Notes under the pieces: generated by a model | What the model was told of the DNA's origin: nothing | Seen by the model: only the letters and a program-made list of their open reading frames with translations | Database searches by the model: none | DNA from: Aquificales bacterium | GTDB lineage: Bacteria > Aquificota > Aquificia > Aquificales > Aquificaceae | Assembly (NCBI GenBank): GCA_027078675.1 | Contig: JALWWX010000216.1 | Coordinates: 1 to 39,981, forward strand | DNA length: 39,981 nucleotides | Reading direction: 5' to 3' | Shown here: piece by piece, positions 28,953 to 31,405 of the stretch | How positions within the stretch are numbered: the first letter of the stretch is position 1 | Layout of the letters: the number at the start of each line of letters is the position of its first letter | Position numbers and translations under genes: made by a program

Positions 28953-29750
28953 TTAAAAAGGAGCTTTTACTTCAGTGTAACCCTTAGGTATATTAAACAA
29001 ATTTTTATTTATATTCATCTTTTTAACAGATCTAATGGAAACTTCTCCTCCCTGCATTTCCCATTTTATAGGTACACCATACATTTTTATATTTTTATCT
29101 ACGAATTTCTTCAAATCCTTTAATATATCAGGATTGTTCTTACCGAAATCTGTCATTTTCGCAGCTTTAATAAGCAAATTTATTTTCATTTTCTCTGCTC
29201 CTATTAAGTCTTTGTTGTCCTTTGTGAACCATGCTACAACTTCTATATCTCTTGTGCCTTTTTGCATCCCTCCTGCTTTTATTATTATTTTTCTGACCCT
29301 GTATTTGCCTATCCTTTTATACTCGTTTGTTGGTTTTAGGACATCTTTTTTAACATAGCACTTATTTGTATTGGGATCGCACTCAATAAATGAAGACATA
29401 AAGCTTAATATCATAAATTCTGGTATGTGTGAAAAATCTGTGTAGGTTTTCTTTTGATGATCAATAGAAAATATGTTTACTTTGTTATCTGATATTTTCT
29501 GTATTAATGAAGTTTCTTTCTTTATTACAGGTGGTATTGAATTTCTAACATTATCAGGAAGTTGATCCATGTCCATTTTTATATCCGTTTTTGTATCTAT
29601 CCTCATAGCATTTTTTATTATGTAAACGGTAGATACGCTTTCTATTTCAACATGGGCTTCTTTTCCTTTAGATTCCTGAATAACCATATATCCGTTAATT
29701 GAAAATGATAAAGAGGAGGTTAACAGAAGCGCTATTATTAGGTTTTTCAT
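28953..29750 (-). CDS. Secreted protein of unknown function
   Basis: A 265-residue protein with a signal peptide (NLIIALLLTSSLSFS, cleavage near residue 17). The rest is mostly beta-strand and lysine-rich, with patterns such as MRIDTKTDIKMDMDQLP and NIFSIDHQKKTYTDF that recall LolA-like or DUF4412 outer-membrane lipoprotein-related domains (YiiD/LolA fold); the similarity is weak. It has two Cys (IECDPNTNKCYV) that could form a disulfide. It is preceded by an 80-base GC-rich structured leader ending beside a Shine-Dalgarno AAAGGTGAG. I do not recognise a function. Confidence 0.7.
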   Translation of the reverse strand: MKNLIIALLLTSSLSFSINGYMVIQESKGKEAHVEIESVSTVYIIKNAMRIDTKTDIKMDMDQLPDNVRNSIPPVIKKETSLIQKISDNKVNIFSIDHQKKTYTDFSHIPEFMILSFMSSFIECDPNTNKCYVKKDVLKPTNEYKRIGKYRVRKIIIKAGGMQKGTRDIEVVAWFTKDNKDLIGAEKMKINLLIKAAKMTDFGKNNPDILKDLKKFVDKNIKMYGVPIKWEMQGGEVSIRSVKKMNINKNLFNIPKGYTEVKAPF

Positions 29751-29767
29751 GTCTCACCTTTGCTTAA

Positions 29768-29834
29768 GCCGGGCTATTTATACCCCGCCTTTAAGGAGCA
29801 TCCATAACCCGGCAGGCGGCATTTGGATGCTCTT
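29768..29834 (-). ncRNA. GC-rich structured leader element with interleaved complementary segments (unassigned)
   Basis: Three complementary pairs interleave: GCCGGG (29768-29773) with CCCGGC (29808-29813); CCGCCT (29785-29790) with AGGCGG (29814-29819); and GAGCATCCA (29796-29804) with TGGATGCTC (29824-29832). The middle pairs sit in the loop of the last, so pseudoknots are implied. GC is about 57 percent against roughly 40 percent around it. A minus-strand TATAAT (29840-29845) predicts a transcript beginning at the first base of the element, and its 3' edge is next to the Shine-Dalgarno of the secreted-protein gene. Strand is inferred from this. It matches no riboswitch class I know. Confidence 0.5.
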
Positions 29835-29839
29835 CATAT

Positions 29840-29845
29840 ATTATA
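29840..29845 (-). promoter_or_regulatory. -10 box TATAAT upstream of the structured leader
   Basis: On the minus strand a perfect TATAAT stands about 7 bases before the first stem of the structured element. The -35 region is AT-rich without a clear match. Confidence 0.4.
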
Positions 29846-29875
29846 ACCCTTGTATAAGATAAAATTTTAATTATT

Positions 29876-31405
29876 ATGCTTACGGAAAGAAAATCCCTTG
29901 AATCAAGGGAGCTTACATTAATAAACGAGATAGCTAAGGTTTTGAGTAAAGGAGCCTCTGTTGATAATGCTGTTGATGAAGCCCTTAAGATAATGTACTC
30001 CTTCTGGGATGTAAGATACAGTTTTGTGGCTTTATACAATAGGGATTTGAAGGTTTTAAATATAACCCATGCATTTGGACTATCAAAGGAGGAAATAGAA
30101 AGAGGGATATTTAAAAAGGGTGAAGGTATTACAGGAAAGGTATTTAAAACGGGAATACCTGTAGTTATATGGGATATTGAAACTAACAAGGCATTTGCGA
30201 ATAAAACGAGGATAAAGGAAAAGCTTAAAGAAAATGAATCTTTTATAGCGGTGCCTATAAGGGTAGGCGGTGAGATAATAGGCGTGCTTGCTATATTTAA
30301 ATCCTTTGAAGGTAAGGAAAGTGTTGAAAGGAGCCTTGAAGTTTTAATCATAATAGGGACCATACTTGGTATGTTTCTAAGGCTCAATCAGAAAATGACG
30401 GAGGAGAGAAAGGAATGGGAGGAAGAAAAGAGGATACTTACAAGGGAGCTTACTGGAAAGTATAACATAGACAATATTGTGGGTAGCAGTCCAGTAATCA
30501 GGAACTTGATAGATATAATTGAAAAGGTAGCAAGGACGGACAGTACGGTTCTGCTACTCGGGGAGAGCGGTACGGGGAAAAGTCTTTTTGCAAAAACTAT
30601 ACATGCCCTGAGTGAAAGAAAGGATAAACCTTTTATAACAATAAACTGTGCTGCTATTCCTGAGCATTTGCTTGAATCAGAGCTGTTCGGTTATGAAAAA
30701 GGTGCTTTTACCGGTGCTTACGCGTCAAGAAAAGGTAAATTTGAACTTGCAAACGGTGGTACTGTATTCCTGGATGAAATAGGTGATATGCCCTTATCTT
30801 TACAACCTAAAATACTGAGGGTTATTCAGGATAAAGAGATAGAGAGGATAGGGGGGGACAAGACCATAAAGGTAGATGTGCGTATTATAGCTGCTACCAA
30901 CAGGGATCTAAAAAAACTGGTTGAGGAGGGTAAATTCAGGGAGGATCTTTATTACAGATTGAATGTAATACCCATTTATATACCTTCTCTCAGAGAAAGG
31001 AGGGAAGATATACCTTTACTTGTTGAATACTTTCTTGATCTCTACAACAAGAAACACGGTAAGAAAGTTAAGATAACACCAGATGCATTAAAGGTAATGA
31101 TGGATTATGAATGGAGCGGTAATGTCAGAGAACTGGAGAATCTTATAGAGAGGCTTGTGGTTATGAAAGATGATGTTATAAGGGACATTGACTTACCTCC
31201 CTACATACTTACAACGAGAATAAACAGGGAAAAGACGGTGGGCAATATGCCCCAGTACATAGAAAGGACAGAAAGGGAAAAAATTATAGAAGCTTTAGAG
31301 AGGACTGGATATGTGAAATCAAGGGCTGCCAAGCTTTTGGGATACACTTTAAGACAGCTTGATTACAGGATAAAGAAATACGGTATAGAGATAAAGAAGT
31401 TTTAG
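29876..31405 (+). CDS. NifA-type sigma-54-dependent transcriptional activator (GAF-AAA+-HTH)
   Basis: A 509-residue enhancer-binding protein. The N-terminal GAF domain (about 20-160) is followed by the AAA+ domain with Walker A GESGTGKS (229-236), the sigma-54 contact loop GAFTGA (276-281) and Walker [12 protein letters not shown]. The C-terminal Fis-type helix-turn-helix ([24 protein letters not shown]) is very close to that of NifA. No nitrogenase gene is in the window, so its regulon is unknown; Aquificales carry several such regulators. No sigma-54 promoter was seen beside it. A weak TAAAAT lies 10 bases before the ATG. Confidence 0.92.

Follow-up and report, generated by a model that had tools for sequence, protein, structure and literature searches.

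What is encoded in a 125-base gap between two divergently oriented genes of an Aquificales bacterium, and is it peculiar to that place? The gap lies in the window, by which we mean the whole stretch of DNA analysed (39,981 nucleotides, contig JALWWX010000216.1), between the gene for a 265-aa protein on the minus strand and a sigma-54 activator gene on the plus strand. A sequence-only reading had described interleaved complementary segments there, and a check of the sequence found every segment that it named in its place. The parts of the locus are as follows; genomes and loci are designated by G- and L-numbers throughout.

28953..29750, minus strand: gene for the 265-aa protein behind the leader, called secreted in the sequence-only reading
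29748-29750, minus strand: start codon of the leader's gene
29753..29761, minus strand: Shine-Dalgarno-like AAAGGTGAG, between b' and the start codon, assigned from the sequence
29764..29836, minus strand: core leader element, P1 plus two pseudoknot helices, as matched by covariance model R1 with 88.9 bits (L022:1500-1572)
29768..29774, minus strand: segment b' (GCCCGGC), from the covariation alignment
29775..29784, minus strand: linker GGTATAAATA joining a' to b', mostly invariant or nearly invariant columns in alignment A1
29785..29789, minus strand: segment a' (GGCGG), from the covariation alignment
29796..29803, minus strand: P1 3' strand GGATGCTC, covariation in three alignments
29807..29813, minus strand: segment b (GCCGGGT; RNA GCCGGGU), inside the P1 loop, partner b', two-sided changes in 5 of 7 pairs
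29815..29819, minus strand: segment a (CCGCC), inside the P1 loop, partner a' or, alternatively, the Shine-Dalgarno sequence
29825..29832, minus strand: P1 5' strand GAGCATCC, two-sided changes in 8 of 8 P1 pairs among 83 distinct copies
29840..29845, minus strand: TATAAT, a -10-like box 7 nt before P1, assigned from the sequence
29876-31405, plus strand: divergent sigma-54 activator gene

Read as minus-strand RNA, the element runs P1 (GAGCATCC), AAAT, a (GCCGCC), T, b (GCCGGGT), TAT, P1' (GGATGCTC), a short spacer, a' (GGCGGGG), TATAAATA, b' (GCCCGGC) and 17 nt that include the Shine-Dalgarno sequence, such that 17 nt separate the last helix base from the start codon. With the order P1-a-b-P1'-a'-b', the helices P1, a-a' and b-b' all cross one another, which confirms on the minus strand what the sequence-only reading had claimed. 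P1 has a ninth pair, 29824/29804, and the pair after that is a G-U formed in plus-strand RNA only. The linker may span a stacked a-b helix.

No Pfam match was found for the 265-aa protein at E 0.001. Homologues occur in 15 of the 61 genomes searched, its own genome counted, and 13 loci with homologues outside the genus gave no element match, although upstream sequence is short or missing at two of these (L013, L018). The element is not tied to the 265-aa gene. Within the genus this gene exists in two forms, G000/G002 versus G001/G003, with DNA about 70% identical, whereas identity is 89-99% over the stretch that leads up to the element and includes it (window 28953-29767 with orthologues L023, L024 and L025); the break in identity falls at the 3' edge of the element, as if alleles had been exchanged there.

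A large family of knotted leaders in Aquificota

Further copies rule out a leader unique to one gene. The genome that contributed the window has four copies detectable at the DNA level and six with the covariance model: that of the window, those before fusA, ftsH, mreB and trxB, and one at the 3' end of a tnpB-like gene (fusA, mreB and the TrxB-like reductase were named by Pfam, ftsH by its resemblance to FtsH of G011, itself confirmed by Pfam). Model R1 was built from 22 copies with P1 alone set as paired; we took all counts from the model search, since a DNA search at E up to 1 returned many short chance matches. R1 matched 47 of 64 genomes of the family (E 0.01) and 81 of 112 genomes of the order, in 20 of 22 genera (E 0.001). 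At the latter threshold 31 of the 112 genomes had no match, among them G018 and G005, which we take to be the genome of Aquifex aeolicus. Copies per genome reach a maximum of 35 in G011, followed by 20 in G059, 18 in G015 and 16-17 in G010.

A pattern scan of species genomes returned 64 stretches, 59 of them titled as Aquificota lineages. The others came from two Thermodesulfobacterium species, a Thermodesulfobacteriaceae bin, bacterium HR37 and an Archaeoglobaceae bin, which may be misbinned. In the two Thermodesulfobacterium species (L280, L290), which belong to another phylum, a solo element precedes a gene that is similar in both, about 600 aa in L280, and reads as an isopropylmalate-synthase type. 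Viral contigs, phages and plasmids gave no family match, and we rejected spread by phage or plasmid on this ground.

A scan of the window against Rfam detected tRNA only; at a relaxed threshold the best score was 16 bits against a gathering score of 50, and six loci that hold long and solo forms yielded one SRP RNA and nothing else when scanned. Known Rfam families are thus ruled out for the element, none scoring above its gathering threshold. The knotted leaders are a large family in Aquificota that is absent from the Rfam library searched.

Covariation settles the crossing fold

In the window itself, the ABCABC motif with 8, 5 and 6 Watson-Crick pairs has no second site (scan in 20-base steps), and dinucleotide shuffling of the region produced it in 11 of 20,000 trials. 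At a looser 6/4/5 pairs it was present in 470 of 5,000 shuffles, so the single sequence is not decisive. Nested folding gave z = -3.76 for the minus strand (29751-29845) and z = -1.48 for the plus strand (29751-29875). The nested minimum of the window copy retains b-b' and breaks P1 and a-a'; segment a (CGCCU) is paired instead with AGGUG of the Shine-Dalgarno sequence, which is free in the knotted fold. Nested folds were not alike among the five copies compared, and we rejected a nested helix between P1' and the a'-linker as the working fold, since 64.1% of its cells were paired, the same as in shuffles. Segment a resembles an anti-Shine-Dalgarno sequence, and window positions 29784-29819 can pair with 29753-29761, with mild enrichment over the copies.

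Alignment of homologues was more informative. Among 22 aligned copies, 98.9% of cells pair, with two-sided changes in 10 of 20 pairs; among 93 matches (83 distinct), 99.8% of 1,658 pair cells are formed and 14 of 20 pairs have changed on both sides. No shuffle of the 93-row alignment, which had been fitted to P1 and not to a or b, matched the observed values, and slid versions scored far lower. Across the 83 distinct copies, two-sided changes affect 8 of 8 pairs in P1, 5 of 7 in b-b' and 1 of 5 in a-a', where a C-G to G-C exchange at one pair is seen in 22 of the 83 and the four other pairs are invariant. The absence of compensatory changes had been named by the sequence-only reading as grounds for giving up the element; they are present. 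The unpaired AAA and UAYAAAUA are nearly invariant across copies.

In eleven species genomes of one genus, the leader is kept before an M48 (HtpX-like) protease gene (L102, L108, L109, L111, L293-L295, L298-L301). At this one orthologous site, where two of the genes are peptidase M48 by Pfam and the rest were so read from their N-termini, 97.9% of cells pair and two-sided changes occur in 6 of 8 pairs of P1 and 3 of 6 pairs of the following hairpin, H4. The helices a-a' and b-b' show no variation there, and further pair types number 13, under the shuffled mean of 16.1. Sister-species fusA leaders (L113 versus L120) also differ by a compensatory exchange in P1.

Compared with its neighbours, the element shows hardly any extra conservation within the genus. 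We therefore dropped strong within-genus conservation as an argument, and the case for selection rests on covariation. Covariation in homologues settles the fold where the single sequence could not. We conclude from these substitution patterns that selection acts on the three crossing helices at the RNA level; the existence of the family and its structure are near certain.

Most copies lie in sense orientation at a short distance from start codons

The sequence-only reading had placed a structured minus-strand leader directly before a Shine-Dalgarno sequence, and the copies bear this out: a sense ORF of at least 60 codons starts within 60 nt of 80 of the 93 copies, compared with 17 of 93 for antisense ORFs (within 160 nt, 91 of 93 versus 43 of 93). 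The opposite sense, which that reading had also entertained, was rejected on account of this bias and of the plus-strand z given above. For the 68 copies classed as solo (the long form L106 was put in this class, and in row L085 the start was taken within the hairpin; 80 of 93 copies were kept after start codons missing or more than 60 nt off and duplicates were dropped), the last helix base lies a median of 15 nt before the start codon and at 10-20 nt in 66, a spread narrowed by the stem search, which was forced to end at least 8 nt before the start codon. The last helix base is that of H4, or of b' where H4 is missing (window, fusA). Such a fixed spacing could stem from insertion targeting rather than from function.

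Of 88 copies, 19 have a TATAAT no more than 25 nt 5' of P1, compared with 6 of 440 control windows; the copies concerned represent 16 loci when four ftsH orthologues are counted once. In the window, a transcript from TATAAT 29840..29845 would begin at the element. The promoter proposed in the sequence-only reading thus gains from the recurrence of the box, but a -35 box to accompany it in the window was sought and not found. In 40 of 88 copies an upstream ORF ends no more than 45 nt before the element.

Which genes follow? Of the 47 downstream ORFs in G011 and G015, 40 were scanned and 37 had a Pfam match at E 1e-6: Rho, Hfq, S11, RNA polymerase alpha, FtsH, pyrophosphatase, NDK, EF-Ts, ThiG, thioredoxin, oxoacid oxidoreductase subunits, L32, SHMT, IF3, L25, KARI, FtsZ, TatA and M50 peptidase were among those matched. 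Genes read as acpP, rplU, rplI, sucC, fabI and fliP had no Pfam call and were named from their N-termini. Six target families recur across genera (ftsH, L32, hfq, rho, pyrophosphatase and GYD), and a seventh recurring cluster comprises the M48 peptidase and a distant relative. The genes behind the elements share no common pathway. In other bacteria, htpX and ftsH are membrane-protease genes tied to stress. Neighbouring genes can have an element each: in G011 (L139:2256-3202) an Fe-S gene and a cysteine-rich-domain gene have separate elements, and in G010 (L171:1897-2694) two related genes have their own, one a solo and one a long form.

With covarying helices, sense orientation and proximity to start codons all found in the copies, the elements are expected to form a family of structured mRNA leaders. 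The knotted element of the window is best explained as a cis-acting 5' leader RNA of the minus-strand 265-aa gene, a reading drawn from comparative sequence analysis.

Kinship with TnpB omega-RNA

G083 and G085 have a 523-aa ORF whose 3' end overlaps with the element. The G083 protein and its 515-aa relative in G001 matched TIGR01766 and TIGR01765 above cut-off; NF040570 stayed under its cut-off, and no Pfam model reached gathering for either protein. TnpB-linked long forms are present in two families of the order. They add stem 1, a hairpin 5' of P1 whose loop can pair with a 3'-terminal ACCAGG. Across the 33 long forms aligned, of 40 found, stem 1 is 98.5% paired and its covariation score is 0.321, compared with 0.185 in shuffles (0 of 500 reach it); two-sided changes in 3 of its 6 pairs do not exceed shuffles (277 of 500). 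The loop pairing with the 3' end is possible in every aligned long-form row, although it is partly built in, as CTATG and CAGG ends were the features by which long forms had been chosen. R1 detects long and solo forms alike, the P1/a/b core being common to both. From these alignments we consider it very probable that an IS200/IS605-type TnpB transposon has this knot as the central domain of its omega-RNA.

The main set of 93 copies, 47 of which come from G011 and G015, comprises 16 long forms and 77 copies that lack stem 1; a second set (L203-L228) has 14 long forms among 27 matches from 17 genomes. The window copy has neither stem 1 nor loop pairing to a 3' end, and it is not at a tnpB 3' end, being preceded by the TATAAT box and the divergent sigma-54 activator gene. 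The absence of stem 1 from this copy and from the 77 argues that they are not standard guides. The 60 nt 3' of the window element, moreover, are 82% identical in G002, 61% in G001 and 56% in G003, and such variability in copies without stem 1 makes a standard guide function unlikely. Since the window copy also lacks the H4 hairpin and CCAGG, it is the core that supports descent of this copy from a transposon end.

As regards INDEPENDENCE from TnpB, 17 genomes were searched with TIGR01766, and no match emerged in G015, G017 or G004, which hold 18, 5 and 3 elements, respectively (G015 and G017 are draft genomes, and G004 is one contig). In G018 the TnpB elements have other ends and no knot; they (L192-L197) end in inverted repeats (GAGGCTGTTCTAAAAAT) and represent a different class of TnpB transposon within the same family. 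The sequence-only reading was thus right about a leader with crossing helices, and it missed the many copies, the relationship to TnpB and the independence from any one gene.

Insertions at Shine-Dalgarno sites

Two insertions could be compared with empty sites in relatives:

L118:696-2266: TnpB transposon, directly after AAGGAGG
L119:2037-2433: 397-nt relative lacking tnpB, directly after AAGGAGG

On contig 39 of G001, the transposon is flanked by ..CTGGAAGGAGG and AGAGGTATG; in G000 the site is empty, ..CTGGAAGGAGG AGAGGTATG being uninterrupted, and the alignment of G002 runs gap-free across the insertion site at two loci. On contig 48 of G001, the 397-nt relative sits between AAAGGAGG and TAATTTATG, before a fabI-like gene, at a site that is empty in G000, G002 and G003. 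In both cases the insertion separates AAGGAGG, a Shine-Dalgarno sequence located 6 nt ahead of the start codon, from that codon, and ACCAGG takes over its position. GGGAGG borders a third copy (G000 contig 182) on the left; a clean empty site for it was sought and not found.

Proposed origin and function of the leaders

We propose that an omega-RNA scaffold was domesticated as a cis-acting mRNA leader. For this whole chain of steps we regard the case as evenly balanced, and the direction from transposon to leader is preferred on parsimony, not on proof. Insertions behind strong Shine-Dalgarno sites would leave the right-end RNA as the leader of a host gene, the right end (..ACCAGG) then occupying the former Shine-Dalgarno position. 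Loss of tnpB and stem 1 would follow, the latter exposing a CCAGG that is maskable in long forms, and the knot would be retained for a benefit in cis. Our view of the mechanism is tentative. We infer that the work is mostly constitutive: a heat-stable knot would start near the transcript start or shortly after the upstream gene and end about 15 nt before the start codon, keeping the ribosome-binding site free. By this account the knot would hold segment a, isolate the ribosome-binding site and shield the 5' end of the mRNA in hot cells.

Given that segment a is able to pair with the Shine-Dalgarno sequence and that AGGYG is enriched there, the main rival is a regulon-wide switch, in which loop and linker would bind a metabolite, an ion or a host protein, or sense temperature, and would set housekeeping translation, possibly by trading a-a' for pairing between segment a and the Shine-Dalgarno sequence. 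We consider it possible but doubtful. It would suit the near-invariant unpaired AAA and UAYAAAUA, the window's nested minimum with CGCCU on AGGUG, and the recurrence of the same gene families (hfq, pyrophosphatase, L32, GYD, ftsH, rho) in different genera. AGGYG occurs in 16 of 63 Shine-Dalgarno windows of element genes versus 10 of 99 controls (Fisher p 0.015), though orthologues are counted among the 63 and AGGYG would serve well as an ordinary Shine-Dalgarno sequence too; mean duplex energy is -7.9 versus -6.84 in controls (p 0.011). Against a switch, AGGYG is absent from 47 of the 63 windows, the target genes lack a shared pathway, and the other nested alternative (P1'/a'-linker) is not conserved. 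What is left of the translational riboswitch suggested by the sequence-only reading is that masking of the Shine-Dalgarno sequence may, as modelled folds allow, act as a switch in the window copy.

The history could also have run the other way, an old host leader having been captured by a transposon as its right end and turned into a guide scaffold. Leaders in genomes without a TIGR01766 match, the G018 TnpB elements that lack the knot, and Thermodesulfobacterium leaders for which the sense ORFs listed over about 2 kb upstream include no TnpB-like one would all accord with such a capture. We hold it to be improbable in view of the long forms in two families and of the position of the knot between stem 1 and stem 4, the place of omega-RNA stems 2-3 in the portion of the ISDra2 study used here (PMC10097598). 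That the copies are functionless transposon scars, kept because the right end provides a Shine-Dalgarno sequence, would explain the lineage-specific insertions at such sites, the 397-nt tnpB-less copy included, and a spacing equal to the right end plus the native distance to the start codon. This reading is already weakened by the compensatory P1 changes and invariant a and b helices of the 11 orthologous leaders, and the window and fusA copies keep the knot without the end that would give a Shine-Dalgarno sequence; we regard it as very unlikely. Least credible of all, with only the faintest chance of being right, is that solo copies serve as guide RNAs in trans with TnpB or a nuclease-dead relative. 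Their scaffold domain is homologous and TnpB-like proteins occur in 33 of 64 family genomes, but 77 of the 93 main-set copies lack stem 1, G015 and G017 (drafts) and G004 have no TIGR01766 match, and identity between species is only 56-82% over the 60 nt that follow the window element on its 3' side.

We return to domestication. Stated in full, the proposal is that in Aquificota the guide-RNA scaffold of a Shine-Dalgarno-targeting transposon became a genome-wide set of cis-acting knotted leaders for essential mRNAs of hot cells, and that these leaders set translation or stability and are retained even where no TnpB-family gene is detected; for this joint claim we see equal weight for and against. 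If it is true, a mobile-element guide RNA has been built into the machinery that expresses dozens of basic thermophile genes, including those for translation factors, ribosomal proteins, RNA polymerase alpha, FtsH and Hfq. It would also reveal a route by which transposon ends turn into mRNA leaders and would link the target choice of TnpB to ribosome-binding sites. A compact RNA with three mutually crossing helices would be open to probing and structure solution, and mRNA protection and initiation in thermophiles would become directly testable.

Comparison with known systems

The comparisons that follow draw on extracts of the papers cited. Aquificales non-coding RNA candidates n1-n99, structured RNAs of the same bacterial order, have been reported from dRNA-seq confined to Aquifex aeolicus (Lechner et al. 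2014, PMC4227106), and in the sections available no such leader family is described among the A. aeolicus candidates. Among the open-access papers listed on exapted omega-RNA, on TnpB with leaders or housekeeping genes and on the Aquificales genera, titles and abstract openings yielded no report of a knotted leader family, and we found no open-access report tying TnpB to Shine-Dalgarno sequences and the target-adjacent motif.

Riboswitches and ribosomal-protein leaders are likewise structured 5' leaders adjoining a Shine-Dalgarno sequence, but here one fold precedes unrelated genes and no ligand is known; the likeness to riboswitches is partial, in that only some copies could adopt an alternative fold that masks the Shine-Dalgarno sequence. 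TldR proteins are of TnpB origin. They are described as RNA-guided regulators in host regulation (PMC13418256, in extract), and thus offer a parallel as a TnpB-derived RNA-guided system serving the host. TldR requires a protein and base-pairing to a target, whereas copies of the present element occur in genomes without a detected TnpB-family gene.

The IS607 TnpB of ISFba1 has the TAM AGGAG, which resembles a Shine-Dalgarno sequence, and its RAGATH-18 reRNA is, like the long forms, a TnpB guide RNA (PMC11061315, in extract). Unlike our long forms, that reRNA is said not to overlap coding sequence (PMC11061315), and the Rfam scan of six loci here gave SRP RNA only. In the omega-RNA (reRNA) of ISDra2 TnpB (IS200/IS605), the order given in the extract is stem 1, inner stems, stem 4, a 3' end pairing with the stem-1 loop, and guide (PMC10097598). 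The inner domain here differs from it in consisting of P1 and two crossing pseudoknots, and the window copy differs further in lacking stem 1, the guide-side pseudoknot and tnpB. The long forms, by contrast, resemble the ISDra2 RNA in overlapping the 3' end of tnpB and in having a stem 1 with loop pairing to the guide-side 3' end, inner stems and stem 4.
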